This document shows positions 46,525 to 64,000 of a DNA stretch of 64,000 bases, piece after piece; position 1 is the stretch's first letter; the number at the start of each line of letters is the position of its first letter. A program made the translations under genes and the position numbers. The stretch comes from Atopobiaceae bacterium (GTDB taxonomy: Bacteria > Actinomycetota > Coriobacteriia > Coriobacteriales > Atopobiaceae). The DNA lies in contig JALCUE010000002.1 of the NCBI GenBank assembly GCA_022655215.1, forward strand, positions 310,001-374,000, in the 5' to 3' direction. The notes beneath the pieces were generated by a model. That model was not told the DNA's origin and searched no databases. It was given only the letters and a program-made list of their open reading frames with translations.

Positions 46525-46677
46525 ACTATATCCAATCCCCGTGCGTTTTCCGCCCGACTCCGGAGACGGGCGAGGGGAACGGCCGCTTGCGGAAGTCCGG
46601 GTGCGAGTTGTGACGCTTCGAGTACAGTCTGCGTTCTCGTTCCTGTACGGAGCCTGCATGCGTGGAAGATTCGAATC
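46525..46677. promoter_or_regulatory. Divergent control region of TCS2 and lipoprotein/GH3 unit
   Basis: On the minus strand TATAGT (46525-46530) is a good -10 for TCS2. Toward the lipoprotein gene, GTACAG (46622-46627) and CTGTAC (46643-46648) form an inverted repeat with a 15-base spacer, about two helical turns centre to centre, and GATTCGAATC (46668-46677) is a perfect palindrome. LytTR or other regulators could bind here. Confidence 0.4.
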
Positions 46678-46720
46678 GAAGGAGCCTGCCGAGGTGGCGG
46701 GCGTGACGGAAGGTGGACAT

Positions 46721-47182
46721 ATGAACAAGGGACTAGTGGTTGCGGGGGCGCTGGCGTGCGTGCTGGCGATGCCCCTCGCGGGATGCGGGTCGTCATCGGG
46801 CTCGAGCGCGTCGACGTCCACGTCGGCGGCCTCGACCTCAGCCGCAACGAGCTCGTTCGATGCGGTGAGCTTCTATCAGGGCCAGTGGCGCGGGTCGGTC
46901 GAGATCACCGGCCAGACCGTCTACGGCACGGCCGGCGGCAACGAGCAGATGCTCGACGTCAACCTCGAGGCGGACGGCACCTGCACGGTGAAGCCCCTCG
47001 CGGCCCACGCCGACCTTCTCGATGACTCGGGCACCTGGGAGGGGACCGCGGATGAGGTGACGCTGCACCTCACGAAGGGTGACGTCACCCTCAAGGTGGT
47101 GGACAAGGCCACGCTCACCGGCACGGCCTCCGACTTCGGCATCACCGACTTCGACACCATCAACTTCGACTTCTACGGCTAG
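46721..47182 (+). CDS. Small lipoprotein of unknown function
   Basis: The 153-aa protein has a lipoprotein signal peptide with lipobox LAGC (cysteine about 22) and a Ser/Thr/Ala linker (23-45). A compact beta-rich domain follows, with YQGQWRGSVEIT, DVNLEADGTCTVKP, GTWEGTADEVTLHL and TDFDTINFDFYG. The pattern suggests a small beta-barrel of the kind that follows one 'W.G' strand with antiparallel hairpins, but I cannot name a family. GGAAGGTGG precedes the ATG. It is divergent from TCS2 and 100 bases upstream of a GH3 lipoprotein gene, probably in one transcript. A binding or accessory role for that enzyme is inference. Confidence 0.7.
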   Translation: MNKGLVVAGALACVLAMPLAGCGSSSGSSASTSTSAASTSAATSSFDAVSFYQGQWRGSVEITGQTVYGTAGGNEQMLDVNLEADGTCTVKPLAAHADLLDDSGTWEGTADEVTLHLTKGDVTLKVVDKATLTGTASDFGITDFDTINFDFYG

Positions 47183-47282: not shown

Positions 47283-49751
47283 ATGTCACACAACGTTTCG
47301 CGCAGGGGGTTCGTGGCCGGCTCGGCCGCCGTCGCGGGCCTTGCGCTCATGGGCACCGCCGCCTGCGGCACCGGCAGCGGCAGCACCTCTACCACCGGCG
47401 CCCCTGACAAGTCCAAGTACCCCATCGACCCCGATGGCTCCGACGTCAAGGCGAAGTGGACCTCCGAGGAGGTCCGCGACGGCTGGACGAAGGTCACCAA
47501 CCCCGATGACGGTGCCGAGCTGGGTGTCATGGACACCGCCAAGATCATCCAGGTCGACGGGCTCGCGTTCAAGGACATGAACGGCGACGGCAAGCTCGAG
47601 CTCTTCGAGGACTGGCGTCAGAGCTCCGCCGACCGCGCCGCGGCACTGGCCGAGTCCCTCTCGGCCGATGACCTCTTCCCGCTGCTCTGGGCGGGAGGCA
47701 CGCAGTCCAGCACCACCTCGACCGACACCTCGGCGACCGAATACGTCGATGCCGGATCCCGCGCCGGCGTCTCTCGCCTGGCCTCCTCCCTCGACTCCTA
47801 TGCCACCGACGTTCAGTGGATCAACGGTATCCAGGAGATCTGCGAGAAGAGCGCTCTCGGCATCCCATACCTCAACTACTCCGATCCCTACGTCCTCTTC
47901 GACGTGCCTACGAGCAACGGACTGGCCGCCTGCATGGACAAGGACATCTGGCGCAAGGCCGGCATGTGGCAGGCTCGTGCCTGGCGTGCCACCGGCGTGC
48001 GCTGCGAGCTCGGCCCCCAGGTCGACGTCTACTCCAACCCCATCGGCACCCGTCTCTCGGGCTCCGTCTCCGAGGACCCGGCCGTGAACCGCGATTTCGC
48101 CAAGGCCTTCGGCGGTGGCATGCAGTCCACCTGGGGCGATGACGATGCCACGGACGACAAGGGCTGGGGCTCCGATTCCGTCGGGGTCATGCTCAAGCAC
48201 TTCGTGGGCGAGGGAAGCAACGAGGGCGGCCGAGACGATCACTCGGATTCCGGCAAGTGGAACGTCTTCCCTGGCAACAACTTCAACGCACACCTCGTCC
48301 CGTTCCTCGACGGTGGCATGAACCTCGATTCCTCCACCAAGGAGGTCGCGTCCATGATGCCCTGCTACGGCATCGCCTATGACCCCAACGAGGACGACCT
48401 GGGCGAGCACGTGGGTAGCGCATACAGCAAGCACAACATGTCCATCCTGAGGAACGCCGGATGGGACGGCATGCTCTGCACCGACTGGATGATTCTCACG
48501 GCCATAGCCCATGGCGTGACGAACCTCACCGAGACAGAGCGGTATGCCAAGCTCATGGAGAACGGCATCTCCCAGCATGGCGGCAGCTTCGATCCCGATG
48601 TCGCGAAGGATGCATATACCCAGATCTCGAGTGATCTTGGTGAGGATGAGGCGCTCAAGCTCTATCAGGAGAACGCGCGTCGCATCTTCAAGCTGATGGC
48701 CGACGTCGAGCTCTTCGAGAACCCCTACTCGGATCGTACGGTCGCCAAGGAGGTCCTCGAGAGCGAGAAGGCCGCCGCGTTCGGTCTGGATGCCTCCGAG
48801 AAGTGCGTCATCATGCTCAAGAACGACGGGACCATCGCCAAGGGCGCCCTGGCTGACAAGCCCAAGGTCTATATCCCGCAGAAGTACACGGCAGCCTCCA
48901 AGTCGACATTCGGATCGACTCCCGCCTCCATCGCGCTCTCCTTTGGCGACGAGATCTCCAAGGACTACTTCGACGTGGTCACCGACACCGTGGCCGATCC
49001 CACGGGAGCACCCGCCGACGGTGAGACCGACCCCACCGCGCAGGACACCGACATCACCAGGCTCACGGCCGCCGACCTCGCCGACGTCAAGTATGCCGTC
49101 GTCGGGATCAACAACCCGGCCGACGCCTATCAGGGAGTCGAGGGCGGCCCGACCTTCGCGACCGCCATCATGGGCATGCCGGCGGATCCCGGCCCCTATT
49201 GGAAGCCCATCTCGCTCCAGTACCGCCCCTTCACGGCCGACGGCGACTACGTACGTCGTCAGTCGCTGAATCCCGTGGACGAGAACGGCGTCCTCGAGAA
49301 CCGCTCGGTCTTCGGTGCGTCGACCTATGCCACCAACGAGTCCGACCTCGACCTGGTCATCAACACCAAGGCGCTCCTGCCGGCCGACGCCAAGCTCATC
49401 GTGGTCATCGATGCCGACAGGCCCATGTGCTTCGGCGAGCTCGAGCAGTACGCGGACGTCATCCTCATGGGCTTCAACACGCTCACGGAGGAGGCCTTCG
49501 CCCACATCATCACCGGCGACGTGGAGCCCTCCGGCCTGCTGCCCTTCCAGATGCCCAAGGACATGGAGACCGTCTTCACCCAGGACGAGGACGTGCCCCG
49601 CGACATGGAGTGCTACACGGACTCCGCGGGCAACGTCTACGACTTCTGCTTCGGCCTGAACTGGTCCGGCGTCATCTCCGACGACCGCACCAAGACCTAC
49701 AAGGTCGACCCGCTCACCAAGCCCGAGGCCACGGTCAAGGCCGACGCATAG
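47283..49751 (+). CDS. GH3 glycoside hydrolase, Tat-type lipoprotein
   Basis: The 822-aa enzyme begins with a twin-arginine signal (SRRGFV, RR at 7-8) that ends in a lipobox-like TAAC (C28), so it is probably exported folded and lipid-anchored. An EF-hand-like loop DMNGDGKLELFEDW (about 98-111) precedes the catalytic barrel. KHF (K305, H306) and the nucleophile D401 in MLCTDWM mark the GH3 active site. The C-terminal alpha/beta sandwich domain (about 490-800) follows, with no FnIII domain. Family members are beta-glucosidases, xylosidases and relatives; the substrate is not determinable. AAGGAG precedes the ATG. Its canonical domain order differs from the membrane-anchored paralogues downstream. 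Confidence 0.88.
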   Translation: MSHNVSRRGFVAGSAAVAGLALMGTAACGTGSGSTSTTGAPDKSKYPIDPDGSDVKAKWTSEEVRDGWTKVTNPDDGAELGVMDTAKIIQVDGLAFKDMNGDGKLELFEDWRQSSADRAAALAESLSADDLFPLLWAGGTQSSTTSTDTSATEYVDAGSRAGVSRLASSLDSYATDVQWINGIQEICEKSALGIPYLNYSDPYVLFDVPTSNGLAACMDKDIWRKAGMWQARAWRATGVRCELGPQVDVYSNPIGTRLSGSVSEDPAVNRDFAKAFGGGMQSTWGDDDATDDKGWGSDSVGVMLKHFVGEGSNEGGRDDHSDSGKWNVFPGNNFNAHLVPFLDGGMNLDSSTKEVASMMPCYGIAYDPNEDDLGEHVGSAYSKHNMSILRNAGWDGMLCTDWMILTAIAHGVTNLTETERYAKLMENGISQHGGSFDPDVAKDAYTQISSDLGEDEALKLYQENARRIFKLMADVELFENPYSDRTVAKEVLESEKAAAFGLDASEKCVIMLKNDGTIAKGALADKPKVYIPQKYTAASKSTFGSTPASIALSFGDEISKDYFDVVTDTVADPTGAPADGETDPTAQDTDITRLTAADLADVKYAVVGINNPADAYQGVEGGPTFATAIMGMPADPGPYWKPISLQYRPFTADGDYVRRQSLNPVDENGVLENRSVFGASTYATNESDLDLVINTKALLPADAKLIVVIDADRPMCFGELEQYADVILMGFNTLTEEAFAHIITGDVEPSGLLPFQMPKDMETVFTQDEDVPRDMECYTDSAGNVYDFCFGLNWSGVISDDRTKTYKVDPLTKPEATVKADA

Positions 49752-50019: not shown

Positions 50020-53000
50020 ATGGCAAAGAAGCCCAAGCCCAAGAAGGCGCCCACGAAGAGGGGCTCCGTCGCGATGGGCATCGTGGCCGGCGTGTGCGTG
50101 GTGCTGGCCGTGGTGCTCAACGTGGGCACATCCATGATGAGCTCGCTGCTCGACCACTATCTGGGAGGTCGTCCCTACACCGTCGAGACGGTGGAGGGCT
50201 CCGACTCCTGGGACACCGAGTACTACACGTCCGACTATCGAGGCCGCACCCAGGCGACCTCCGACGCCAAGGACCTCACGGCCGAGGTCGAGGGCGAAGG
50301 CATCGTCATGCTCAAGAACGACGGCGACGCCCTTCCCATCGACTCCGGCACCACCGTGAGCCTGCTCGGTCGCTACGCGGCCGATCCCATCTACGGAGGC
50401 GCCGGCTCGGGCACCGTCGACCCTGACGACTGCACGGACCTGTACGCGGGTCTCACCGAGGCCGGCCTCACCGTGAACGACACGGCGTACGACTGGATCA
50501 AGCAGAACTACTCCAACTACGCCAAGGCCGACATCACCATGGATGACCCGTCCACGGCCAGCTACTACATCGGCGAGATCCCCTGGTCCGACTACAGCTC
50601 CGAGGCCCAGGACTCCATCAAGGGGACCACGGCCGTCGTGGTGATCGGGCGCGGCGGCGGCGAGGGTGGCGACCTGTCCACCAACCTGCTCGACGACCTC
50701 GACTCCGGCGTGTCCACCAACTTCACGGCGAACTCCGAGACGGCCAACTACGTCGAGGGCCAGCATGAGCTGGAGCTCACCGTGGAGGAGAAGAGCCTCA
50801 TCGCGGCCGCCAAGAGGAGCTGCTCCAAGGTCGTCGTGCTGGTGAACGCCTCCACTACCATGGAGCTCGGTCCCCTCATGGAGAAGGGCGGCGACTACGA
50901 GGTCGACGCCATCCTCGAGATCGGCTCGCTGGGTGCCTCGGGCGCCAAGGCCGTGGGCAACGTCCTCACGGGCGCGACCAATCCCTCCGGCAGGACCACC
51001 GACATCTGGGCCGCCGACTTCACGGCCGACCCCACGTTCGGCAACTTCGGCGGCAACCAGTACACCGACGTCTCCGGCTACTACACCACCAACTACAACT
51101 CCACCAAGTCCGACGGCACCGCCTACTTCGTCGAGTACGAGGAGGGCATCTACTACGGCTACCGCTACTACGAGACGGCCGCCGTCGAGGCGGCTGCCGG
51201 GAACTACGCCGGCTTCGACTACGACTCGTCCGTGGTGTTCCCGTTCGGCTACGGCCTGTCCTACACCGACTTCACGCAGACGCTCGATGACGTGACCCAG
51301 GACGGAACGACCGTCACGGCCAAGGTGACCGTCACCAACACGGGCTCGGTCGCCGGCAAGAGCGTCGCCGAGATCTACTACACCGCCCCCTACACGTCCG
51401 GTGGGGTGGAGAAGAGCGCCGTGGTGCTGGGCGCGTTCGACAAGACCAAGCTCCTCGAGGCCGGCGAGTCACAGACGCTCACGCTCACCTATGACGTGCG
51501 TGACATGGCCTCGTGGGACAGCTCCGCCAAGAACGGAGGCGGCGCCTACGTGCTGGACGCCGGCGACTACGTGGTGAGCCTTCGCAGCGACTCCCACACC
51601 GTCATCGATTCCAGGACGCTCACGCTCGACGCCAAGACCTATGACACCGACTCGTCCACGGGCAACTCCGTCTCCAACGAGTTCTCCGACCTGACCACCT
51701 ACATGGACGACAACTGCGAGAACCTCTCCCGCGCGGACTTCTCCGGAACCTGGCCCAAGGCCGCGGCCGACAAGACCGCCGAGTCCGTGGGAATCTCGTT
51801 CGCCGAGTACGACGTGGCCGCCAACGAGGACTCCTCCGCCACCATGCCCACCACGGGTGCCAGCAACGGCCTCTCGCTCATCGACCTGCGTGGCGCGGAC
51901 TACGACGACGAGGCGTGGGACAGCCTGCTCGACGAGCTGTCCGTCTCGGACATGACCAGCGTCCTCAACGACGGCGCCTACAACACGGCCGAGCTCGCCT
52001 CGATCAGCAAGCCCGCAACCTCCGACCCCGATGGCCCCGCCGGCTTCACGTCGCTCACCGGCCCCACGGGCAACTGCTCCTACTGCTCCGAGTACGTCAT
52101 GGCGCAGACCTGGAACACCGACCTCATGAACCAGGTGGGCGAGATGGTGGGTCAGGAGGCGCTCGCCTCCGGCTACTCCGGCTGGTACGCCCCCGCGGCC
52201 AACACCCACAGGAGCCCGTTCGGCGGCCGCAACTTCGAGTACTACTCCGAGGACCCTCTCCTCTCGGGCAAGATGTGCTCCGCGGTGGTCTCGGGTGCCG
52301 CCTCCAACGGCTGCTATGCCTACGTGAAGCACTTCGCCATGAACGACCAGGAGTCCTACCGCGTGCAGCACATCTGCGTCTGGGCCAACGAGCAGACCGC
52401 GCGCGAGATCTACCTCAAGCCGTTCGAGATCACGGTGAAGGAGTCCACGTACGAGGAGAAGTACATCTCCGATGACAACGGCACCGTCTCCACCAAGACC
52501 ATGCCGGCCTGCTCCGCGATCATGAGCTCGTTCAACTACATCGGCGCCACCTGGGCCGGCGGTCGCGAGAGCCTCATGACCGACGTGCTGAGGAACGAGT
52601 GGGGCTTCACCGGCATGGCCATCACGGACTTCAACCTCTACGGCTACATGAACAAGAACCAGGCCGTGGCCGCCGGCACCGACCTCCAGCTCACCTACTC
52701 GGCCATGACTGGCAACTACCAGGCCACCGATTCGGCCACCGTGGTCTCCCAGATGCGCGAGTCGATGCACCGCCTGCTCTACACCGTGGTCAACTCCAAC
52801 GCGATGAACGGCATGTCGCCCGGCTCCACGGTCAAGTATGGCGTCGCCAACTGGCAGTGGGCGGTCTACGGCGTGACCGCCGTGCTCGCGGCCATCGCGG
52901 CCCTCATGGTGTTCGGCGTGTTCAAGCGCAGGAAGCGTCGCCTGGCCATGACCACCGGCGCCGTCGGCGGGACGGATCCCACCGACCCCACCGACCCCGC

Positions 53001-53082
53001 GCCCGCAGCGCCACTCGACCCGACCCCCGACGCATCGGCGGACGCCCCGCATGATGCCGCGGACCCGCACGACGAGACCTGA
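50020..53082 (+). CDS. Membrane-anchored GH3 glycoside hydrolase with swapped domain order
   Basis: The roughly 1020-aa protein has an N-terminal membrane helix (about 15-38). The GH3 C-terminal sandwich domain comes first (about 90-400, with GIVMLKNDGDALPI and YGGAGSGTV). An FnIII-like domain follows (about 405-560, with FPFGYGLSYTDF). The TIM-barrel catalytic domain is last (about 640-920, with KHF at 770-772 and nucleophile D870 in AITDFNLYG). A second membrane helix (about 947-968), RRKRR and a Pro/Asp-rich tail end it. Swapped order is known for some rumen GH3 beta-glucosidases (Ruminococcus albus, Butyrivibrio). The enzyme is probably tethered at both ends outside the membrane. ATG 50020 has GGAAGG at 6 bases; ATG 50014 is an alternative. 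Confidence 0.88.
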   Translation: MAKKPKPKKAPTKRGSVAMGIVAGVCVVLAVVLNVGTSMMSSLLDHYLGGRPYTVETVEGSDSWDTEYYTSDYRGRTQATSDAKDLTAEVEGEGIVMLKNDGDALPIDSGTTVSLLGRYAADPIYGGAGSGTVDPDDCTDLYAGLTEAGLTVNDTAYDWIKQNYSNYAKADITMDDPSTASYYIGEIPWSDYSSEAQDSIKGTTAVVVIGRGGGEGGDLSTNLLDDLDSGVSTNFTANSETANYVEGQHELELTVEEKSLIAAAKRSCSKVVVLVNASTTMELGPLMEKGGDYEVDAILEIGSLGASGAKAVGNVLTGATNPSGRTTDIWAADFTADPTFGNFGGNQYTDVSGYYTTNYNSTKSDGTAYFVEYEEGIYYGYRYYETAAVEAAAGNYAGFDYDSSVVFPFGYGLSYTDFTQTLDDVTQDGTTVTAKVTVTNTGSVAGKSVAEIYYTAPYTSGGVEKSAVVLGAFDKTKLLEAGESQTLTLTYDVRDMASWDSSAKNGGGAYVLDAGDYVVSLRSDSHTVIDSRTLTLDAKTYDTDSSTGNSVSNEFSDLTTYMDDNCENLSRADFSGTWPKAAADKTAESVGISFAEYDVAANEDSSATMPTTGASNGLSLIDLRGADYDDEAWDSLLDELSVSDMTSVLNDGAYNTAELASISKPATSDPDGPAGFTSLTGPTGNCSYCSEYVMAQTWNTDLMNQVGEMVGQEALASGYSGWYAPAANTHRSPFGGRNFEYYSEDPLLSGKMCSAVVSGAASNGCYAYVKHFAMNDQESYRVQHICVWANEQTAREIYLKPFEITVKESTYEEKYISDDNGTVSTKTMPACSAIMSSFNYIGATWAGGRESLMTDVLRNEWGFTGMAITDFNLYGYMNKNQAVAAGTDLQLTYSAMTGNYQATDSATVVSQMRESMHRLLYTVVNSNAMNGMSPGSTVKYGVANWQWAVYGVTAVLAAIAALMVFGVFKRRKRRLAMTTGAVGGTDPTDPTDPAPAAPLDPTPDASADAPHDAADPHDET

Positions 53083-53088
53083 TGAGCC

Positions 53089-53117
53089 GCCGGGGCGGGG
53101 AGCTCCCTCGCCCCGGC
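53089..53117 (+). terminator. Hairpin directly after membrane GH3 gene
   Basis: GCCGGGGC (53089-53096) and GCCCCGGC (53110-53117) form a perfect 8-bp stem 6 bases after the stop codon. Confidence 0.5.
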
Positions 53118-53170
53118 ACGCCTCATAGGTGAGCCCGCCGTCCTCCTTCCACGGCGAGCCCATCGCTCCT

Positions 53171-53203
53171 GACGACCCCGCGTCCCCTGTCCGCGGGGTC
53201 GTC
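53171..53203 (+). terminator. Second strong hairpin after membrane GH3 gene
   Basis: GACGACCCCGCG (53171-53182) and CGCGGGGTCGTC (53192-53203) form a perfect 12-bp stem with a 9-base loop, followed by CCATGTTCAT. It probably backs up the upstream hairpin. Confidence 0.6.
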
Positions 53204-53225
53204 CCATGTTCATCGGCCGTGCGGC

Positions 53226-53281
53226 GTCACTAACCGTTCGATTCTGGTCCCGCGGCGTCACTAACCGTTCGATTCTGGACC
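53226..53281. repeat. Dispersed intergenic repeat, copies 6-7
   Basis: Two direct copies (53226-53250 and 53257-53281) of the CACTAACCGTTCGATTCTGG element lie in tandem with a 31-bp period, separated by a few bases. They match the copies found at 8787-9029 almost exactly, 44 kb away, again in an intergenic region. Confidence 0.85.
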
Positions 53282-53289
53282 CGTGGTCG

Positions 53290-53454
53290 TCGAAATCGCG
53301 TCGAGTGTACGAATAAACGGGTGGTTTGCGAGCGGCTCCCTCGGACCCGATGCGTCTACCTGCGGCTCCGCGAAATGACATAAGCGTTCGAACCGAAAAA
53401 TCGTACATTCGACGCGATTTCGAGCGGGAATCGTCCATCGTGGGCGATTCCCGC
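53290..53454. repeat. Spaced inverted repeat and hairpin upstream of GH3 gene
   Basis: Arms of 23 bp at 53290-53312 and 53401-53423 match in inverted orientation with one mismatch (core TCGAAATCGCGTCGA). They enclose 88 bases of A+T-richer sequence. Immediately after, GCGGGAATCG (53424-53433) and CGATTCCCGC (53445-53454) form a perfect 10-bp stem. No ORF with coding character is enclosed. The remaining bases up to 53672 hold no evident gene. Confidence 0.7.
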
Positions 53455-53672
53455 AGGCTGCCGCGGTCGTCGGCCATCGTCGCGTCTGCTGCGCCCGTCA
53501 CGGCCATCGCGGCCTTTCCGCCGGCCTCCGCCCGTCCCGCTCGCCCGCCGCCCCTACCAAAGGTGACCCGTGCGCGACAAGTTACGTCAAACCCCGCACA
53601 GGCCCTCGATCAGTGCTTACATTCATCATCGGAAGGCATCCGTCCCACGTGCGACGCCGAGAAGGGCCAACG

Positions 53673-56123
53673 ATGAAGCATCAAGACCTCATAGCCAGCC
53701 TCACCCTGGAGGAGAAGTGCGCGCTTCTCTCCGGCGGGTCCGCGTTCCGCACGCGTGGCATGGAGGCCCACGGAATCCCCGAGATGCAGTTCTCCGACGG
53801 CCCCCACGGCCTCAGGCTGCAGGGCGCCGATGCCAACCACCTCGGGCTCGGCTCCAGCATGCCGGCCACGTGCTTCCCCACGGCCACCACGGTCGCCAAC
53901 AGCTGGGATCCCTCGCTGGGCGAGCGGCTGGGCGAGTGCCTGGGTGAGGAGTGCCTGGCCGAGAAGGTCGACGTCATCCTCGGCCCCGGCCTCTGCATCA
54001 AGCGCAGCCCCCTGTGCGGCCGCGACTTCGAGTACTTCTCGGAGGACCCCTTCCTCGCGGGCAAGATGGCCGCCAGCTACGTCCGCGGCATCCAGGGGAC
54101 GGGCGTCTCCGCGTGCCCCAAGCACTTCGCGGTGAACAGCCAGGAGACGCGGCGCCAGGCGTCCGACTCCGTGCTCGACGAACGCACCCTCCGCGAGATC
54201 TACCTCTCCGCGTTCGAGACCGTCGTGCGCGAGAGCCATCCCATGTGCCTCATGAGCAGCTACAACCGTGTGAACGGGACCTTCGCCAACGAGAATCCCT
54301 ATCTGCTCAAGCAGATCCTCCGCGACGAGTGGGGCTTCGACGGCGCCGTCGTGACCGACTGGGGCGGCTCGAACGACCACGCCGCGGGCGTCAGCGCCGG
54401 CTCGACCTTCGAGATGCCCGACCCCGGCCTCAGTTCCGTGCGCGACCTCATGGCCGCCGTGTCCTCGGGAGAGGTCTCCGTCTCCGACCTCGACGCGCGC
54501 GTGGACGAGGCCATCGAGCTCATCCTCACCACGACGGCCGCAACCTCGGCCGCCTCTGACGAGTTCGACATGGACGCCCACCATCAGGTTGCTCGCGAGA
54601 TCGCCGCCCAGTCCATCGTCCTGCTCAAGAACGACGCACCCACCCCCGGTGCCGGTCCCCTCCTACCGCTGGCCGCCGGCACCAAGGTGGCCCTCGTGGG
54701 CGACTTCGCCGCGACGCCGCGCTATCAGGGCGCGGGATCCTCCCTCGTGAACTGCACCAAGCTGGACTCCCTCCTCGACCTCATGCCCGACTCGGGTCTC
54801 ACCTTCGTGGGATACGAGAAGGGCTTCGAGCGCCACGGTGGCGAGGGTGAGGCGCTGGCCTCGGCCGCGGTCGACCTGTCGAGGAAGGCCGACGTCGTCG
54901 TGGTCTGCCTCGGTCTCGACGAACAGGCCGAGTCCGAGGGTGCCGACCGCACCACCATGCGGCTCAACGACAACCAGGTCGCCCTCCTCCACCGCGTGGC
55001 CGAGGCGAACCCCAACGTGGTCGTGCTCCTCTCCGGCGGCTCCGCGGTGGAGTCGGGCTGGGTCGTGGACGCGGCCTCCGTGCTCTACCTCGCGCTGGGC
55101 GGACAGGCCGGTGCCGACGCCGCGCTCGACGTCCTGCTCGGCAGGCAGAACCCCTCGGGCAGGCTCAACGAGACCTGGCCCGTCTCCCTCACCGACACGC
55201 CCACGGCCGCGACCTTCCCCGCGGAGGGCGCTGCAGCCGAGTACCGCGAGGGCATCTACGTGGGCTATCGCTACTACCGGACGGCGGGCGTCCCCGTGGC
55301 ATATCCCTTCGGCTTCGGCCTGTCATACACCACCTTCTCCTACTCCGACCTCGAGGTGACGCCCACCTCGGCCTCGTTCGTCGTGACCAACGACGGTCCC
55401 GTCGCGGGATCGGAGGTGTGCCAGCTCTACGTGTCCAAGCCCGTCCACGACGTGTTCCGCGCCGACGAGGAGCTCAAGGGCTTCGCCAAGGTGACCATCG
55501 CGGCCGGCGGTCAGGCGCGCGTCACCATCCCGTTGGACGAGAGGTCCTTCTCCTACTTCGACGTGGGGACCGGGCGTTGGGAGATCGAGGCCGGGACCTA
55601 CGAGGTCCGCATCGGGTCCTCGAGCGCCGACATCCGCCTCGTCGGGACGGTCGAGCAGGCCGGCACCGGTGCTGCGGACCCGTATGCCGGCAAGGACCTC
55701 GCCGCCTATGACACGGCCGACGTCACAGCCGTGGCGGATGCCCAGTTCGAGGCCCTTCTCGGCCACGCCCTGCCTGAGGGCAAGGTCGCGCTGGACCGCA
55801 ACATCTGCTTCTGCGACCTCATCCATGGCCGCAGCCCCATCTTCTGGCTCGTGTGGCTCGTCCTCTTCCTCATCAAGCGGGCGAGCGAGCGCTCCGGAAG
55901 GCCCAACCTGAACGTCCTGTTCATCTGGAACATGCCCCTGCGCGCGCTGGCCAAGAACGCCGGGGTCGTCTTCTCGATGGGAGCCGTCGACGGCCTCGTC
56001 ATGGAGATCAAGGGGTTCTGGGTCGTGGGCCTCGTCCGCTGCATCGCGGGCATCGTGGCTAACCTCGTGAAGAACGCCACGCAGGGCTCCCGCCTTGCGT
56101 CGACCGAGAAGGCATCAGACTAG
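53673..56123 (+). CDS. GH3 glycoside hydrolase, canonical order with hydrophobic C-terminal extension
   Basis: The 816-aa protein has the classical order: TIM barrel (about 1-300) with FSDGPHGLR, KHF (K150, H151) and nucleophile D229 in VVTDWGG; sandwich domain (about 315-530); FnIII-like domain (about 560-660). No signal peptide is visible. An extra 120 residues at the C-terminus hold a hydrophobic segment (IFWLVWLVLFLI, around 735) and amphipathic helices ending RCIAGIVANLVKN. GH3 proteins from Firmicutes often carry a similar tail. It is probably a beta-glucosidase-type enzyme at the inner face of the membrane. AAGGG precedes the ATG. A GtrA-like gene follows after 36 bases. Confidence 0.9.
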   Translation: MKHQDLIASLTLEEKCALLSGGSAFRTRGMEAHGIPEMQFSDGPHGLRLQGADANHLGLGSSMPATCFPTATTVANSWDPSLGERLGECLGEECLAEKVDVILGPGLCIKRSPLCGRDFEYFSEDPFLAGKMAASYVRGIQGTGVSACPKHFAVNSQETRRQASDSVLDERTLREIYLSAFETVVRESHPMCLMSSYNRVNGTFANENPYLLKQILRDEWGFDGAVVTDWGGSNDHAAGVSAGSTFEMPDPGLSSVRDLMAAVSSGEVSVSDLDARVDEAIELILTTTAATSAASDEFDMDAHHQVAREIAAQSIVLLKNDAPTPGAGPLLPLAAGTKVALVGDFAATPRYQGAGSSLVNCTKLDSLLDLMPDSGLTFVGYEKGFERHGGEGEALASAAVDLSRKADVVVVCLGLDEQAESEGADRTTMRLNDNQVALLHRVAEANPNVVVLLSGGSAVESGWVVDAASVLYLALGGQAGADAALDVLLGRQNPSGRLNETWPVSLTDTPTAATFPAEGAAAEYREGIYVGYRYYRTAGVPVAYPFGFGLSYTTFSYSDLEVTPTSASFVVTNDGPVAGSEVCQLYVSKPVHDVFRADEELKGFAKVTIAAGGQARVTIPLDERSFSYFDVGTGRWEIEAGTYEVRIGSSSADIRLVGTVEQAGTGAADPYAGKDLAAYDTADVTAVADAQFEALLGHALPEGKVALDRNICFCDLIHGRSPIFWLVWLVLFLIKRASERSGRPNLNVLFIWNMPLRALAKNAGVVFSMGAVDGLVMEIKGFWVVGLVRCIAGIVANLVKNATQGSRLASTEKASD

Positions 56124-56159
56124 CGCCGGGACGTCCCGCCGCGTGAAAGGAAGGCCCCC

Positions 56160-56732
56160 ATGGCATTCAAGGACTGGACCGAGAAGCACGAGAGCCTCTG
56201 GCAGTTCATCCTGTTCAACATCCTCTCGAACATCTCCACCATCACGCGCTTCGTGTGCACCTGGATCGGCACGGCCGTCTTCGTCAACATGCTCGCGATG
56301 ACGCAGCCGTTCAGCTTCCTCATCTTCAACTACACCTCCACGGGCTCCAACGGCCTGGGCGGCTTCCTCACCTTCCTCGTGGCCGAGGTCCTGGCCCAGA
56401 TCGTGAACTTCTTCGTGCAGATGAAGTGGGTGTTCAAGTCCGACGCGGCCTTCTCCGAGGCGGCTCCCAAGTACGCGGTCCTCGCCGTGGTGATCGTCGT
56501 GGTGAACCTCGTGCTGCCCGGCTACGTCACCGCCTGGTGCATCGACCTCGGCATGGCCTCCGAGCTCGCCGCCACCGTGGCGTCCGTCGTGAACACGCTG
56601 CTCGCCGTCATCGTCAGCTTCCCCGTGCTCAAGTTCTGGATCACGCCGGACGAGGACAAGTCCGATTCGGCCGAGAAGACCGCCGCGACCGAGAAGGCCG
56701 CTGCCTCCACCGAGAAGGACGACGCGAAGTAG
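56160..56732 (+). CDS. GtrA-like membrane protein
   Basis: The 190-aa protein has four membrane helices (about 18-40, 60-80, 100-122 and 135-155). The segment NFFVQMKWVFKSD matches the conserved 'NF....W.F' of the GtrA/DPMS-associated family. GtrA proteins are thought to translocate polyprenyl-phosphate-linked sugars for glycan modification. The C-terminal tail (about 165-190) is Lys/Ala/Glu-rich (EKTAATEKAAASTEKDD) and resembles the N-terminal extension of the Mg2+ ATPase at 12175. GGAAGG precedes the ATG. Its place 36 bases after a GH3 gene and 158 bases before another suggests a joint role in surface glycosylation. Confidence 0.82.
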   Translation: MAFKDWTEKHESLWQFILFNILSNISTITRFVCTWIGTAVFVNMLAMTQPFSFLIFNYTSTGSNGLGGFLTFLVAEVLAQIVNFFVQMKWVFKSDAAFSEAAPKYAVLAVVIVVVNLVLPGYVTAWCIDLGMASELAATVASVVNTLLAVIVSFPVLKFWITPDEDKSDSAEKTAATEKAAASTEKDDAK

Positions 56733-56890
56733 GCCCGTCCCTCCCGCCGCCCATGGCCGAGACTTCCCAGCGGGTCACCTGAAGGCTACCTTCTAAGCAA
56801 AGGCCCGCCCGAAGGCAGGGTCCGACCGGCGGGTCCGACGAGGGCCGGCCTCGGGGGAGCGAAGCGTCCCTCGCACGGGAAGGGGAGCGC

Positions 56891-59800
56891 ATGGCAGACG
56901 ACAAGGACCCCACGGAGGGCAAGGCCGCGAAGGGCCATGGACCCGGGGGCTCCGGTGCCGACAAGCCCAGGAAGCCACACATCGTCCGCCACTCCGTCCT
57001 GCTGGCCGTCTCCGGAGTGTTCCTGGTCACGTCGGGCGTGGCCACCTATCTCGCGTTCGGTCCCCTGTCCGGCCTCGTCGACGCGTTCACGACGGGCATG
57101 GAGGTCACGTACTCCGACGGCGCCTCCGCCGTCACCACCGACGAGTGCGAGGACGTGGCGGCCCAGGTGGAGGCGGAGAGCATCGTCCTGCTCCGGAACG
57201 AGGGCTCGACCCTGCCGCTCTCCAAGGATGACACCAAGGTGAACGTGTTCGGGTGGGCGTCGACCGACTGGCTGGGCGGCGGCTCCGGTTCCGGCGGGGT
57301 CAAGAGCGTCGACACCGACCTCATCAAGTCGTTGAACGACTACGGCATCGAGACGAACACCGAGCTCACAGGCATGTACGAGAAGTTCGCCGGGGGCCGT
57401 GCGTACACCAGCTCCCTCAATTCCTACCCGGCGCAGTCGAGTCGTCTCTACGAGCCGTCCATCACCGATGAGAGCTGCTACTCGTCCCGGATCCTCTCCG
57501 ATGCGAAGGACTTCTCCGACACCGCCGTCGTCGTGATTGCACGCCAGACCGGCGAGAGCAACGACATGCCCAAAACCCAGTACAAGATGACCAAGGCCGC
57601 AGGGTCCGACGCCGACGTCGTGGAGGACGTGACCCGCACCTCCCTGGAGCTCTCCACCGAGGAGGAGGCCCTGCTCACCTACGTGGGGGCGAACTACGAC
57701 AAGGTCGTGGTCGTCCTCAACACGGGCAACACCATGGCGGTGGGACAGGTGGAGACCATCCCCGGCATCGACGCCGTGGTGGACGTCGGCCTCACCGGGC
57801 AGGACGCGGCCTCGGCCATCCCCGGGGTGCTGTGGGGCGACACGTCACCCTCCGGACGTACCACCGACACCTGGGACTATGACATGTCCACCAATCCCAG
57901 CTGGGTCACGTCGGGGGAGGACGGGGTCGGCACGTACACGAACGCCGACGGCCTCTATCCCGCGGACGGGACCTCGAACGGCAACCTCGGTGACGCCTCG
58001 GCCACCTACGACCAGGTCTCCTACGTGGACTACTCCGAGGGCATCTACGTGGGATACAAGTGGTACGAGACGGCCGACGCCGAGGGCTACTGGGACACGA
58101 CCTCCAACGCCCACGGCACCGGCTACGACGCGGTGGTGCAGTACCCGTTCGGCTACGGCCTGTCCTACACCACCTTCGACTGGGAGGTGCTGGACGCGCC
58201 GACGTCGCTCGACCCGGACGGCACGCTCTCGTTCACGGTGCGCGTCACCAACGTCGGCGACGTCGCCGGCGCCGACGTGGTCGAGCTCTACTCCACGCCC
58301 CCCTACACGAGGGGCGGGATAGAGAGGAGCTCGGTGGAGCTCGCGGGCCACGCCCGCACGCCCACGCTCGACCCGGGCGCCTCCTGCGAGGTCACCATCA
58401 CGGTGGACCCCTACGACCTGGCCGCCTACGACTGCTACGACGCCGACGGCGACGGCTTCGCCGGCTACGAGCTCGAGGCGGGCGACTACGCCTTCTCCCT
58501 GAGGCGCGACGCCCACACCCCCGATGACTCGGCGGGCTCCACGACGACGCTGTCCCTGGCCTCCACCCACCACTACGAGGTCGACCCCACCACGGGCGAG
58601 GCCGTCACCAACCGGTTCACCGGCGACGACGCCGCCGACGGCGTGGCCTCCGACGGAGCCGGGCAGGGCGTCACCTACCTGTCCCGGGCCGACTTCGCCG
58701 GCACCTTCCCCCAGGCGCCCACCGGCAGGGACATCCCCGACGACGTGGCCGCCCTCAACCGCTACACGGCCGCCGACGCCGACGCGGCGATAGACGAGGG
58801 CGACCAGGACGTCACCACGGGAGCCCAGAACGGGCTCGAGGTCGAGAAGGACGGCAAGGTCACGTCGCTCGGCCTGCAGCTGGGCGCCGACTACGACGAC
58901 CCCGCCTGGGACTCCCTGCTCGACGAGCTCACCACGGACGAGATGGAAGGTCTCTTCACCAGGGCCTATGCCACGACCACGAGCCTGCCGAGCGTGGGCA
59001 AGGAGGAGACCCACGAGGCCGACGGCCCCGCCCAGATAGGCAGCTTCTCCTCGGCGGGCACCGGCACGGGCTTCCCGTCCCCCTCGACCCTGGCCAAGAG
59101 CTGGGACGTCGACCTCGCCCGCAAGGTGGGCCGCACCATCGGTAGCCAGGCCCTCTCGCTGGGATACTCCGGCTGGTACGCTCCCACGGCGAACCTCCAT
59201 CGCTCCCCGCTCGACGGTCGCAGCTTCGAGTACTACTCGGAGGACAGCCTCCTCACGGGGGAGATGTGCGGCAGCGTCGTGGCCGGCAGCGCCGACTCGG
59301 GCGTCTACTGCTACATCAAGCACTTCATAAACGATGACGGTGAGGCCGGGATCTACCGGGATGGCATCTACACCTGGGAGACCGAGCAGGCCCTGCGCGA
59401 GACCTACCTCGAGCCCTTCCGCATCGCCGTCGAGAGGTACGGCGCCACGGGCATCATGAGCAGCTACAACCGCATCGGTGCCGTCTGGGCGGGGGGCTCC
59501 GAGGCCCTGATCACGGACGTGCTCCGCGGCGAATGGGGATTCGACGGGGCCGTCATCACCGACTTCAGCGACCACCCCGAGTACATGAACGGAGACCAGT
59601 CCCTCAGGGCCGGCGGCAGCCTCTGGATGACGATGACCGGCGGCCTCACGTGCGAGACGGGCTCCAACACCTACAAGCAGCATCTCCGTGAGGCGACGCA
59701 CCAGGTCCTCTACATGTACCTCAACGCCCGCGTCACCAACCAGAGCTTCGTCTCGTCGAGTGTCGACAATGCCAGATGGGAGCGGCCGACCATAGCAAAG

Positions 59801-59932
59801 GGCACGAGTTGGGCCCGCATCGCGATCGTCGGGCTCGACGTCACGTTCGCCCTCCTCAGCGCGACCTGGATACGCTCGATCGCCCGCGACCGGCGCCTCA
59901 GGAGGGGAGAGGGAGCATCACGTCGAGGGTGA
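56891..59932 (+). CDS. Membrane-anchored GH3 glycoside hydrolase with swapped domain order, second copy
   Basis: The 1013-aa paralogue of the enzyme at 50020 has a cytoplasmic N-terminal tail (1-30), a membrane helix (about 32-55) and the sandwich domain (about 85-400, with SIVLLRNEGSTLPL and GGGSGSGG). The FnIII-like domain (about 415-560, FGYGLSYTTFDW) and catalytic barrel (about 700-930) follow, with KHF at 810-812 and nucleophile D891 in VITDFSDH. A C-terminal helix (about 977-997) ends in basic residues. Both ends are thus membrane-anchored. GGAAGGGGAG precedes the ATG. The last 35 bases overlap the convergent TCS3 kinase gene. Substrate unknown; beta-glucoside cleavage is the family default. 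Confidence 0.88.
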   Translation: MADDKDPTEGKAAKGHGPGGSGADKPRKPHIVRHSVLLAVSGVFLVTSGVATYLAFGPLSGLVDAFTTGMEVTYSDGASAVTTDECEDVAAQVEAESIVLLRNEGSTLPLSKDDTKVNVFGWASTDWLGGGSGSGGVKSVDTDLIKSLNDYGIETNTELTGMYEKFAGGRAYTSSLNSYPAQSSRLYEPSITDESCYSSRILSDAKDFSDTAVVVIARQTGESNDMPKTQYKMTKAAGSDADVVEDVTRTSLELSTEEEALLTYVGANYDKVVVVLNTGNTMAVGQVETIPGIDAVVDVGLTGQDAASAIPGVLWGDTSPSGRTTDTWDYDMSTNPSWVTSGEDGVGTYTNADGLYPADGTSNGNLGDASATYDQVSYVDYSEGIYVGYKWYETADAEGYWDTTSNAHGTGYDAVVQYPFGYGLSYTTFDWEVLDAPTSLDPDGTLSFTVRVTNVGDVAGADVVELYSTPPYTRGGIERSSVELAGHARTPTLDPGASCEVTITVDPYDLAAYDCYDADGDGFAGYELEAGDYAFSLRRDAHTPDDSAGSTTTLSLASTHHYEVDPTTGEAVTNRFTGDDAADGVASDGAGQGVTYLSRADFAGTFPQAPTGRDIPDDVAALNRYTAADADAAIDEGDQDVTTGAQNGLEVEKDGKVTSLGLQLGADYDDPAWDSLLDELTTDEMEGLFTRAYATTTSLPSVGKEETHEADGPAQIGSFSSAGTGTGFPSPSTLAKSWDVDLARKVGRTIGSQALSLGYSGWYAPTANLHRSPLDGRSFEYYSEDSLLTGEMCGSVVAGSADSGVYCYIKHFINDDGEAGIYRDGIYTWETEQALRETYLEPFRIAVERYGATGIMSSYNRIGAVWAGGSEALITDVLRGEWGFDGAVITDFSDHPEYMNGDQSLRAGGSLWMTMTGGLTCETGSNTYKQHLREATHQVLYMYLNARVTNQSFVSSSVDNARWERPTIAKGTSWARIAIVGLDVTFALLSATWIRSIARDRRLRRGEGASRRG

Positions 59933-61196
59933 CGGCATCGCCGCGGGTGTTGGTCACCAGCGTGCCGTGGTAGCGCTCGGCGACCAGGAGCATGGACCGC
60001 ATACCGTATCCACGTCCCGAAGCCTCGCCCTCGTGGCCCTTCCCCCCGTCCGAGTAGCACTCGACGTGGATGACCACCATCCCGCGGTTCCGCCTCACGT
60101 CGAGGCCGATGCTGCGGCGGCTCTCGTCCTCGATCCCCGCCACGGTGGCCATGGCGCCGTCGAGCGCGTCGCCGAACAGCGCGTAGATGTCGGCAGGGTC
60201 CATGAACGAGAGCGCCGCGCCGTCCGCCATGCAGGTGAACGTGATCCCCTCGCGCTCGCACAGCAGGCGCCGCTCGGTGAGGATCACGTCCAGCGCCTCG
60301 TTTCCCGTCCGCATCGTGGAATCGTAGATGGTGATGTCGTTCTCGAGCCTGTCGAGCGCCTCGTCGTCCACGCCGCCCTCGCGCATCCCGCGCACCTGCT
60401 GCCTGAGGTCGTGGCACCTCGCGTCGATCGCGGCGATGCTGCGCTGGCTCGCCTCGTAGTGCCTGCGGCCGTCGGCGATGGTCCTCTCGGCCGCGGCGAC
60501 GTCGAGGGCGAGGCGCTTGCTGTAGAGCATCTCGTATTCCATGATCAGCAGGAACGCGCACACCGCACCGTGTATGAGCCTGAGGATGACGACGACCGGC
60601 GTGGGCACCCCGTAGCCGGGCAGGGACTTGTTGACGAGGTCGAACACGATCACCAGCAGGATGACCGCGAGCATCATGAGGAGCATCCCATGGTCCTCGA
60701 CCTCGACGAGGCCCCTCTCCTCGATCTGTCGGACGAACGTGAGGTAGACGATGCCGAAGATGAGGATCGTGGAGACGACCATGCCGATGGTCGAGGGGAG
60801 CGGCGCGTCCGGGTCGGCGCCTCCGCCGGCGAGGACCAGCCGTATGAGGCCGTCACAGCCGCTCGCGAGGTTCTGCACGGTGTAGCCTGCCGTGCAGCAG
60901 AACAGGGCGGTCCACATGGGGGTGTCGAAGCAGAACATCACGCAGCACGCGATCACCACCAGCACGCCCGTGAACGTGAGGAACTGGGAGGCGATGGCGT
61001 GCTCGCCCATGAGCGATGGCACGGCCGAGAACCCCACCCACGTGGCCGCCACGGTGCCGATCGCGAATCCGGCGAACACGATGGACGCACGCAGGTGGAA
61101 GTGGTCGCGTCTCGGCTGTCTGCGGACGAACATCCAGACGGCGAACAGCAGCTGGACTATGGTGAACAGCGACATCGCCACCTGGGTCCAGGTCAT
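59898..61196 (-). CDS. GHKL-type sensor histidine kinase with altered N box (TCS3)
   Basis: The 432-aa kinase has about six N-terminal membrane helices, phosphoacceptor H262 in DARCHDLRQQVRGM, then TGNEALDVILTERRLL. In the ATP-binding domain the glycine box GRGYGMRSM is kept, but the N box reads LFGDALDGAMATV, with D346-G347 replacing the usual E-N. The lost asparagine normally coordinates Mg-ATP, so activity is doubtful. Start ATG 61196 overlaps the regulator stop (TGATG). The 3' end overlaps the convergent GH3 gene by 35 bases. Confidence 0.82.
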   Translation of the reverse strand: MTWTQVAMSLFTIVQLLFAVWMFVRRQPRRDHFHLRASIVFAGFAIGTVAATWVGFSAVPSLMGEHAIASQFLTFTGVLVVIACCVMFCFDTPMWTALFCCTAGYTVQNLASGCDGLIRLVLAGGGADPDAPLPSTIGMVVSTILIFGIVYLTFVRQIEERGLVEVEDHGMLLMMLAVILLVIVFDLVNKSLPGYGVPTPVVVILRLIHGAVCAFLLIMEYEMLYSKRLALDVAAAERTIADGRRHYEASQRSIAAIDARCHDLRQQVRGMREGGVDDEALDRLENDITIYDSTMRTGNEALDVILTERRLLCEREGITFTCMADGAALSFMDPADIYALFGDALDGAMATVAGIEDESRRSIGLDVRRNRGMVVIHVECYSDGGKGHEGEASGRGYGMRSMLLVAERYHGTLVTNTRGDAVTLDVMLPLPS

Positions 61197-61906
61197 CAGA
61201 TGCTGCCTCCCAGGAAGGCCGCGATCCTCTCGAGGCCGGGCTTGCGCCTCGACCTGCTGAAGTAGAGGGTGTCGCCTGTGTCCATGTCCAAGGCGTTGCC
61301 GGCCACCGACCTCACGTGGGCCATGTTCGCGAGGCAACCGCTCGAGACGCGGACGAACGGCTCGTCCGCGAGGTCCTCCTCGACCTGACGCAGACTGGTG
61401 CGGGTCCTGAGGGGCTCGCCGTCGGCCTCGTGGTAGATGACGTCATGTCCCGAGGTCTCGACGTAGGCGAGGTCCCTCACGGCGATCACGCGCATGCCGT
61501 CGCGCGTGGGCACGACGACGCTCCTGCCTGAGTTGCGACGCATGGCGCGCATGGCCTTGTCCATGCGAAGCGACAGGTCGTAGTAGGTCACGGGCTTCAC
61601 GATGAAGTCCAGGGCGTCCACCTCGTAGCCGCGGACGGCGTACTGGACGAGGTTCGTCACGAAGATGATGGGCGTCACCTGGTCGTAGGTGCGGATGAGC
61701 GTGGCGGCCTCGAGGCCGGAGATGCCCGGCAGGTCTATGTCGAGGAAGATGAGGTCGCTCTTCTGGCTATCCTGCGCGAGGGTGACGGCGCTGGTCAGGC
61801 GGCTGCACGAGAACTCCTCGCCGTTCTTCTCGGCATAGCGCATGAGACTGCCCTCGAGGGCCGACGCCGCCTCGTCATCGTCCTCGACGATGAGGATCCT
61901 GTACAT
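61196..61906 (-). CDS. LytTR-family response regulator (TCS3)
   Basis: The 236-aa regulator has a receiver with MYRILIVEDDDE, phosphoacceptor D56 in DLIFLDIDLPG, FVTNLVQYAVRGYE and the conserved FIVKPVTYY. Its LytTR domain (about 140-232) shows DLAYVETSGHDVIYHEADGE and FVRVSSGCLANMAHVRSV. ATG 61906 follows GAGGGGGG. It is divergent from the GH3 gene at 62191, with a perfect inverted repeat between them, so that gene is a probable target. It is closely similar to the TCS1 and TCS2 regulators, which points to duplication. Confidence 0.9.
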   Translation of the reverse strand: MYRILIVEDDDEAASALEGSLMRYAEKNGEEFSCSRLTSAVTLAQDSQKSDLIFLDIDLPGISGLEAATLIRTYDQVTPIIFVTNLVQYAVRGYEVDALDFIVKPVTYYDLSLRMDKAMRAMRRNSGRSVVVPTRDGMRVIAVRDLAYVETSGHDVIYHEADGEPLRTRTSLRQVEEDLADEPFVRVSSGCLANMAHVRSVAGNALDMDTGDTLYFSRSRRKPGLERIAAFLGGSI

Positions 61907-62084
61907 GGCATGCCCCCCTCGCGTCCGCGCCAGTCGGCCGGGGAGTCCCGCCGGCTCACGTACATGGTACCCGCGCATGCCATGGTTCGCTCGGCGTCGC
62001 CCGTCGGCGCACCGTTCGGCCCGCCCCTCCCGGCATCACGACCGAACCCGCCACACCCGTTACCGATTCTGACAGGGGCCTATG

Positions 62085-62115
62085 AGCTTGAAGTCAGTCT
62101 GAGTATCTTCAAGCT
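62085..62115. promoter_or_regulatory. Inverted repeat between TCS3 regulator and GH3 gene
   Basis: AGCTTGAAG (62085-62093) and CTTCAAGCT (62107-62115) are perfect inverted 9-mers with a 13-base spacer, 22 bp centre to centre (about two helical turns). The site lies 75 bases before the GH3 ATG and 179 bases before the regulator ATG. A dimeric regulator, possibly the TCS3 LytTR protein, could bind. The rest of the 284-base gap shows no gene. Confidence 0.5.
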
Positions 62116-62190
62116 GCCAGGAAGACCGCCCCGTCGGACAGGTATGGCAAGGCAGGGACCACGGGGTCACACAGAGGAAAGGGAGGGAAC

Positions 62191-64000
62191 ATGCTGGGAA
62201 TCAACATGAGCGATGTGATGAGCGTGCTGGGCAACTGCGCCCCGTATCTCATCTTCTTCGCGGTCGTGCTCGTGGCCTCGATCGTCGTCTCCATCGCGGT
62301 CCGCAAGCAACCGAAGCCCAGGAAGAGGCTCATACGCAAGGGTGCCGGCATCGCGACGATCGCCGCGCTCGTCATCGCGGTGAACCTCATCTGCTGGGGT
62401 CCGATGTCGAGCATCATCACGCTGGCGACCGGCACGGGCGCCTCGGTGAGCGACGAGACCACGCAGGAGGCCGAGCAGCTCGCCGTCGACATCTCCGACG
62501 AGGGCATCGTCATGCTCAAGAACACCGACGACACGCTCCCGCTCCAGACGAGCGGCCAGAAGCTCAACGTGTTCGGCTGGGCATCGACCAACCCCATCTA
62601 CGGCGGCACCGGTTCCGGCTCGCTGAACGACGACTATCCCACCACGACCCTGCTCCAGGGCCTGAATGACGCGGGAATCGAGACTAACACCGAGCTCTCC
62701 GACTTCTATACCAACTACTGCGCCGAGCGTCCCACCTCGACCACCATGCTCGCGACCGACTGGAGCCTCCCCGAGCCTCCGGCGACCACCTACTCCGATG
62801 ACCTCATGAGCGACGCCGAGTCCTTCTCCGACACGGCCCTCATCGTCATCGGCCGTTCCGGCGGCGAGGGCAACGACCTGCCCTCCGACATGTCCACCGT
62901 CTCCGGCACGTTCTCGAACTCGTCGAGCTATGACGACTTCCAGCCCGGCCAGAGCTATCTCGAGCTCTCCCAGAGCGAGAAGGACATGATCGACATGGTC
63001 TGCTCCAAGTTCGACAACGTCATCGTGCTCTACAACGGCGCGAACACCATGCCCCTCGGCTGGACCGAGGACTACTCGCAGATCAAGAGCGTCCTGTGGT
63101 TCGCGGGCGCCGGCCAGACCGGCTTCGAGTCCCTGGGCAGGGTCATGACCGGCGAGGTCAACCCCTCCGGCAAGACCTCCGACACGTTCGTCTACGACCT
63201 GGACTCCTCGCCCAGCTCGAACAACTTCGGCGACTTCAAGTACGACAACATGGGCGAGTACGCCACCACGAACATGGGCCAGGAGGTGAGCCCCAGCTTC
63301 GTGAACTATGACGAGGGCATCTACGTCGGCTATCGCTACTACGAGACGGCCTCCACCGAGGGCTCGATCGACTACGCCTCCACCGTGCAGTACCCATTCG
63401 GTTATGGCCTGTCCTACACGACGTTCTCCCAGACCATGTCCGACCTCCATACGGCGGCGGACGGCACGATCAGCCTTGACGTGACCGTGACCAACACCGG
63501 CACCGTCGCCGGCAAGGACGTGGTCGAGGTCTACTACAACCCGCCCTATACCAACGGCGGCATCGAGAAGTCCAGTGCCAACCTCATCTCGTTCGGGAAG
63601 ACCGACGAGCTCAAGCCCGGCGAGTCCACCACGGTTACCATCTCGTTCAACGAGGAGGACATGGCCTCCTATGACACCTCGGCCGATGGCGGCAACGGTG
63701 CCTACGTGCTCGAGAGCGGCGACTACGTCATCTCCATCAACTCCGATGCGCACGACATCATCGACCAGCGCACCTATACGGTCGGTTCCACCATCACCTA
63801 CAGCGGGGACAACAAGCGCTCCAGTGACGAGACCGCCGCGTCGAACGAGTTCTCCGATGCCGCCGGTGACGTGACGTACCTCTCGCGCGCCGATCACTTC
63901 GCCAACTACGATGCCGCCACGGCCGCTCCCACGGACTACTCCATGTCCGACGAGCAGAAGGCCAGCTTCGTCAACACGTCGAACTATGACTCCTCGGTCG
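62191..64000 (+). CDS. Membrane-anchored GH3 glycoside hydrolase, swapped order, truncated by window end
   Basis: The frame is open from ATG 62191 (after GGGAGGG) to the window end, 603 codons, with no stop. Two N-terminal membrane helices (about 15-38 and 50-75) are separated by a basic loop (RKQPKPRKRLIRK). The GH3 sandwich domain comes first (about 95-380, with GIVMLKNTDDTLPL and YGGTGSGS). The FnIII-like domain (about 405-560, with YPFGYGLSYTTF) follows. The catalytic barrel should lie beyond the window. It is the third swapped-order GH3 of the region; its hairpin-like double N-terminal anchor differs from the single one in the genes at 50020 and 56891. Confidence 0.85.
   Translation, partial: MLGINMSDVMSVLGNCAPYLIFFAVVLVASIVVSIAVRKQPKPRKRLIRKGAGIATIAALVIAVNLICWGPMSSIITLATGTGASVSDETTQEAEQLAVDISDEGIVMLKNTDDTLPLQTSGQKLNVFGWASTNPIYGGTGSGSLNDDYPTTTLLQGLNDAGIETNTELSDFYTNYCAERPTSTTMLATDWSLPEPPATTYSDDLMSDAESFSDTALIVIGRSGGEGNDLPSDMSTVSGTFSNSSSYDDFQPGQSYLELSQSEKDMIDMVCSKFDNVIVLYNGANTMPLGWTEDYSQIKSVLWFAGAGQTGFESLGRVMTGEVNPSGKTSDTFVYDLDSSPSSNNFGDFKYDNMGEYATTNMGQEVSPSFVNYDEGIYVGYRYYETASTEGSIDYASTVQYPFGYGLSYTTFSQTMSDLHTAADGTISLDVTVTNTGTVAGKDVVEVYYNPPYTNGGIEKSSANLISFGKTDELKPGESTTVTISFNEEDMASYDTSADGGNGAYVLESGDYVISINSDAHDIIDQRTYTVGSTITYSGDNKRSSDETAASNEFSDAAGDVTYLSRADHFANYDAATAAPTDYSMSDEQKASFVNTSNYDSSV

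Follow-up and report, generated by a model that had tools for sequence, protein, structure and literature searches.

What keeps company with a glycosidase that seems to be fixed to the membrane by both of its ends, and what might such an arrangement be for? The question is raised by a stretch of 64,000 nucleotides from an Atopobiaceae bacterium (contig JALCUE010000002.1, positions 310,001 to 374,000), called the window below. Three genes at its right-hand end, A, B and C, encode enzymes of glycoside hydrolase family 3 (GH3) with a permuted domain order, and a fourth, D, follows directly after C outside the window. The reading preferred here, at a probability of a little over 0.6, is that A-D are outward-facing exo-glycosidases held at the membrane by both ends and working within a cassette of neighbouring genes. 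Judged from predicted helices, double anchoring is how a widespread and little-described branch of the GH3 family is normally built.

The domain order is clear. In A (50020..53082, plus strand, 1020 residues) and B (56891..59932, plus strand, 1013 residues) Pfam places GH3_C first, then an Fn3-like domain and then GH3_N. The ATG start of A is position 50020, 3' of AAGGGAAGGATGGAG. C (62191..64000, plus strand) runs beyond the window edge. Its full copy (L011:692-3598, 968 residues) and the complete D (L011:3784-6900) also carry the catalytic barrel, with the barrel match of C at contig 2 374249-374770. Both the GH3_N barrel and the GH3_C sandwich exceed the Pfam cut-off in all four proteins. 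The initial annotation had given a swapped order to the three enzymes of the window, and this stands, for A and B by their Pfam order and for C by the barrel of the full-length protein.

The permuted fold itself was described for GlyA1 in 2016 (PDB 5k6l-5k6o; PMC5104943), with which A-D share the order of sandwich, FnIII and barrel. GlyA1 (5k6o) is also the best solved match of A in Foldseek, and the match runs end to end (E 7.7e-58, TMt 0.80, 26% identity). The Paenibacillus barengoltzii beta-glucosidase (5wug/5wvp) has the same permuted fold and is again matched end to end (5wug; TMt 0.67, about 24% identity). However, the ends differ. Neither transmembrane segments nor signal peptides come up in the GlyA1 paper (PMC5104943), which describes an extra C-terminal segment of 120 residues, whereas the ends of A-D are predicted membrane helices. 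In the AlphaFold2 model of A this segment of about 120 residues, not clearly a subgroup-defining trait, is absent. The last barrel helix stops near residue 924 and is followed by a linker, a helix at 944-980 and a low-confidence tail. The models of A and C are confident overall (pLDDT 89-91, pTM 0.89-0.91), and most of the end helices reach pLDDT 84-93. The spacers in A are short, with about 60 residues ahead of the sandwich and about 20 following the barrel.

Catalytic motifs are present in A-D, and across 57 sequences neither the acid/base E215 nor the nucleophile D870 of A varies. In B and D the usual KHFxxNDQExxR barrel pattern is replaced, by KHFINDDGEAGIYR in B and KHFVCDDCESDIYR in D, which hints at a substrate other than that of A and C. 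None of A-D, nor the classical GH3 described below, attains a curated NCBIfam cut-off, so no substrate is assigned. There is a slight lean towards plant or diet glycosides, with something short of an even chance. The cell's own envelope glycans are slightly less favoured and a more tentative candidate.

How firm are the helices? They were called from Kyte-Doolittle (KD) hydrophobicity in a 19-residue window, with a threshold of 1.6. A has an N-terminal core at residues 17-35 (50068..50124, plus strand; KD 2.69; AlphaFold2 helix 13-39) and a C-terminal core at residues 949-967 followed by KRRKRR (52864..52920, plus strand; KD 2.32; AlphaFold2 helix 944-980). The N-terminal core of B covers residues 36-54 (56996..57052, plus strand; KD 1.97), and a marginal C-terminal helix lies at about residues 976-994 (59816..59872, plus strand; KD 1.58), with an Asp inside it at the family position and a basic tail after it. 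D has helices at 24-42 (KD 2.04) and 967-985 (KD 1.92). C begins differently. After the start MLGINMSDV comes a first core at residues 19-37 (62245..62301, plus strand; KD 2.86) and, after the basic loop RKQPKPRKRLIRK, a second at 51-69 (62341..62397, plus strand; KD 2.08). Its full copy ends in a further helix at residues 924-942, past the window edge (KD 3.00). Across the enzyme cores of A-D the KD maximum is 1.32. The view that two of the enzymes carry helices at both termini is therefore borne out for A and B, with one marginal end in B. The two-helix hairpin described at the start of C is likewise found, but that description was incomplete, since full-length C ends in a helix as well.

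Composition-preserving shuffles of the first 90 residues reach the observed peak 0 (A), 57 (B), 130 (C) and 524 (D) times per 10,000. The corresponding counts for the last 120 residues are 3, 153, 0 and 214. At the C-terminus A and C thus lie far from chance. Taken singly, B and D have weaker statistics, yet the pattern is kept in relatives.

A search of genome contigs gave 79 loci, and a first comparison covered 82 sequences, 32 built like A (type A, as is B, with one N-terminal and one C-terminal helix) and 50 built like C (type C, with the hairpin). A second set was taken from other genomes and holds 108 complete permuted GH3s. Both sets were collected mostly by similarity to A or C, so that the counts that follow describe this clade and not all permuted GH3s. 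In the first set 24 of the 32 type A sequences and 49 of the 50 type C sequences have both helices over the threshold (73/82 in all), and the charges fit an outside enzyme with basic cytosolic ends, the positive-inside pattern, in 28 type A and 49 type C sequences. The second set has both helices in 93 sequences, the N-terminal one only in nine, the C-terminal one only in three and neither in three. Sequences without double helices are mostly twin-arginine (Tat) or lipoprotein versions. Double anchoring had been thought unusual when the locus was first annotated. This survey for helices at both termini among GH3 relatives suggests the reverse, for within the clade it is the rule. Close relatives (E <= 1e-100) occur in 38 of 299 sampled genomes in the family of a Butyrivibrio genome (G099), in 41 of 297 in the order of a Cellulomonas genome (G103) and in 10 of 295 in the order of genome G105, and a relative at E <= 1e-50 occurs in 7 of 249 genomes in the phylum of G099.

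The type C start is nearly invariant. It reads MLxINxxDV, and in 42 non-redundant sequences M1, D8 and V9 are kept in 100%, N5 and L2 in 98% and I4 in 95%, as is W922 ahead of the last helix in 100%, although these percentages are somewhat circular because the set was picked with a motif resembling that start. The same start recurs in 22 type C sequences aligned without such selection. For what would otherwise pass as a targeting segment, such constancy points to a role beyond export. The hairpin is predicted to be N-out, and the N-terminal helix is likely to be kept in the mature protein. An amygdalin GH3 of a bee Bifidobacterium (PMC9897726) was considered as a type C example, but its published primer begins ATGGCATCAAGGAAGTTG, which is not the type C start, and it is not used as evidence. 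On the type A side, close relatives of A in Tractidigestivibacter-like genomes have twin-arginine motifs (TRRKFIGS, MTRRGFIASG) and weaker N-terminal helices, and a few permuted GH3s (L137, L149) resemble Tat lipoproteins that lack a C-terminal helix. These motifs and relatives support export and show that the anchor can vary.

The next question is which genes accompany the anchored enzyme. A is followed by a classical-order GH3 of 816 residues (53673..56123, plus strand; Pfam GH3_N/GH3_C/Fn3-like) and then by a GtrA-like multi-helix membrane protein of 190 residues (56160..56732, plus strand). The classical GH3 is presumed to be cytosolic; no signal peptide was seen in it, and its C-terminal extension is partly hydrophobic. 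The same order makes up the cassette found in relatives. A classical GH3 relative lies directly downstream of the anchored GH3 in 41 of the 69 relatives with room for it. In the 55 loci that reach 14 kb or more, the classical GH3 is present in 36, a GtrA-like gene in 37, both in 34 and a LytTR gene in 38. The window GtrA-like protein matches PF04138 weakly (26.5 bits against a cut-off of 26.1). PF04138 is matched by 11 of 11 GtrA equivalents at E <= 0.01, and three more, scanned alone, score 29.7, 24.6 and 22.7 bits, two of them under the cut-off. Proteins of the GtrA/GtrB type form lipid-linked sugar modules. The cassette resembles them in that a GtrA-family protein adjoins a GT2 glycosyltransferase in many relatives. 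It differs in that the GT2 of the relatives lacks a pair of terminal helices and is accompanied by two GH3 hydrolases, and in that the window has no adjacent GT2.

Between B and C the minus strand carries a regulatory pair (59898-61978). It consists of a GHKL-type sensor kinase with a GHKL ATPase domain (59898..61337; PF14501; an open frame of uncertain start) and a LytTR response regulator with receiver and LytTR domains (61196..61978; PF00072 and PF04397; an open frame with its true start internal). Homologues of the kinase occur in 49 of the 79 relative loci and of the regulator in 48. The divergent region before C contains one consensus-like LytTR site.

How might these parts fit together? 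In the preferred reading A-D would be retaining exo-glycosidases of the permuted, GlyA1-like GH3 subgroup, exported so that their enzyme domains face outwards. Each would be anchored by a C-terminal helix with its basic cytosolic tail and, at the other end, by an uncleaved single helix in type A or an uncleaved N-out hairpin of two helices in type C, and the short spacers would hold the active site near the membrane. The anchored GH3 would then be the outer half of the cassette and would strip terminal sugars on the outside of the membrane. A glycan might be carried or positioned at the membrane by the GtrA-like protein while the second GH3 works at the inner side, and the GHKL/LytTR pair might turn the cassette on. 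The computations bear out the fold and domain order, the catalytic motifs, the helices with their charges and the conserved cassette, while export, the uncleaved N-terminal helix, hydrolysis, cooperation of the parts and regulation are inferred.

What if the type A N-terminal helix is simply a cleavable Sec or Tat signal? In this scenario the mature enzyme would be anchored by its C-terminal helix alone, like many Gram-positive surface proteins. This is unlikely for A, whose hydrophobic core of about 20 residues is long for a signal peptide and in whose relatives an Asn near the outer helix end and the stretch that follows are conserved. It is also hard to apply to type C, with its predicted N-out first helix and nearly invariant start. 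Nevertheless, several observations weigh against double anchoring and the cassette. Hydrophobicity alone is compatible with cleavage, so that the type A helix may be removed as a signal, and some type A relatives have plausible cleavage sites (V-A-A, A-A-A). Close relatives of A combine twin-arginine motifs with Ala-rich ends, distant ones such as L153 and L155 resemble ordinary signal peptides, and the published Butyrivibrio annotation (PMC2914790, PMC5716241) names the C-terminal helix only. The C-terminal peak of B falls just under the threshold. Tractidigestivibacter-type loci are without an adjacent classical GH3 and GtrA, and no convincing LytTR site common to the upstream regions of A-D was found. 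Finally, a putative intramembrane pair, N65/D930, was considered as proof that the end helices pack and is kept as a hint only. Its counts in the first sequence set are 38/5/0/7, its mutual information ranks 158 of 3050, and with more sequences and a tree there is one joint loss against two cases in which only N changes and two in which only D does. Resting on one joint loss, the coupling does not show that the helices pack. The initial picture of an enzyme stapled to the membrane is thus kept in part. The positive-inside charges at the two ends agree with it, as do the terminal helices in two confident AlphaFold2 models, but a type A signal may be cleaved.

What the anchored enzymes act on divides the possibilities further. 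One tentative explanation is that they are ordinary nutritional enzymes, beta-glycosidases of a gut bacterium's carbohydrate-use locus that have been amplified in tandem, with GtrA as a bystander. This would suit six GH3 genes within about 21 kb, copies that exchange sequence (an identical block of 474 bp in B and D) and the placing of LytTR regulators beside such GH3s in B. proteoclasticus carbohydrate-use loci (PMC2914790). However, GtrA comes directly after the classical GH3 in Actinomycetota and Bacillota alike, which hardly fits a bystander. A somewhat less probable explanation is that the cassette is directed at glycans of the cell's own envelope. In this case GT2 and GtrA, with a mutase in some genomes, would make and move a lipid-linked sugar that the stapled GH3 trims or recycles at the outer face. 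GtrA is present in 34 of the 36 longer loci (14 kb or more) that carry the classical GH3. A GT2 follows GtrA in 16 of the 37 GtrA loci (Cellulomonas-, Microbacterium-, Actinomyces-, Bifidobacterium- and Bacillus-type), and a UDP-galactopyranose mutase is added in seven loci, the two mutases tested exceeding the NCBIfam cut-off. Likewise, no dedicated sugar transporter stood out among 20 neighbouring proteins tested, although these were a chosen set, and one UDP-galactopyranose mutase gene is present elsewhere in the window's genome. On the other hand, no GT2 or mutase was found beside the window genes, GlyA1 was characterised as a rumen beta-glycosidase (PMC5104943), and nutrition would fit the multiplication of GH3 copies in gut genomes. 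Nutrition is slightly favoured for the window's genome, while GtrA, GT2 and mutase make a real case for the envelope. That all of this belongs to an undescribed, widespread Gram-positive system for processing membrane glycans, in which a doubly fixed hydrolase, a cytosolic GH3, a GtrA-like protein and a GT2 (with a mutase in some) act on lipid-linked or envelope glycans and not on food, is doubtful.

How much of this has been described before? Secreted GH3 enzymes with a C-terminal transmembrane helix, adjoining LytTR regulators, were reported in 2010 for the polysaccharide utilisation loci PUL7, 21 and 33 of B. proteoclasticus (PMC2914790). In B. hungatei bgl3D lies beside bgl3B, and GH3 enzymes are predicted to be intracellular (PMC5716241). 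The likeness to the window consists of the C-terminal helix, the LytTR neighbour and a second adjoining GH3, and the Butyrivibrio relatives recovered here share these traits. The difference is that the N-terminal hairpin and a link to GtrA go unmentioned in the available parts of those two papers. A literature search that covered few subscription papers found no description of the hairpin (MLxINxxDV), of anchoring at both ends or of a GH3-GH3-GtrA cassette. The permuted fold and the C-terminal helix with LytTR neighbours are thus already known, and the double anchor, the hairpin start and the cassette, not found described, are apparently new. Since genome papers class some such GH3s as intracellular or one-helix proteins, where these enzymes sit in rumen and gut bacteria, and what they do there, may be wrongly assigned. 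A conserved cassette of anchored hydrolase and GtrA would also be a testable link between glycan breakdown and the handling of lipid-linked sugars, and it offers a handle on the role of GtrA-like proteins outside O-antigen modification.

The window's genome is 2.0 Mb in size, with the window on its contig 2 and one further GH3, single-domain, on another contig. Its closest relatives point to the Atopobiaceae (Olsenella/Tractidigestivibacter). B and D share the identical block of 474 bp (window 58322-58795, L011:5179-5652) and are 86% identical over most of their length, which suggests recent gene conversion between tandem copies. Another GH3, at window 47283-49751, has a Tat-type start, a likely lipobox and weak Pfam scores (51 and 35 bits), and tandem arrays of similar Tat/lipoprotein genes are present in related genomes. 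It adjoins a second pair of kinase-like and LytTR-regulator-like genes (44411-46847, minus strand), recognised by their likeness to the pair between B and C.

A 23-bp element, CGTCACTAACCGTTCGATTCTGG, occurs in two tandem copies 31 bp apart ahead of the classical GH3 (53225-53278) and again at 8785-9029. It was tried as a LytTR site and rejected, being dispersed genome-wide with 21 copies within 3 mismatches; a control pattern had none. Further to the left, window 24877-32847 (plus strand) encodes a pilin- or adhesin-like surface protein of 2656 residues with four FctA isopeptide, two DUF11 and one Cna_B domain, and 15005-23794 (minus strand) a protein of 2929 residues with ten Listeria-Bacteroides repeats and Ig-like domains. 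A tandem pair of cation-transporting P-type ATPases lies at 9279-15030 (plus strand).

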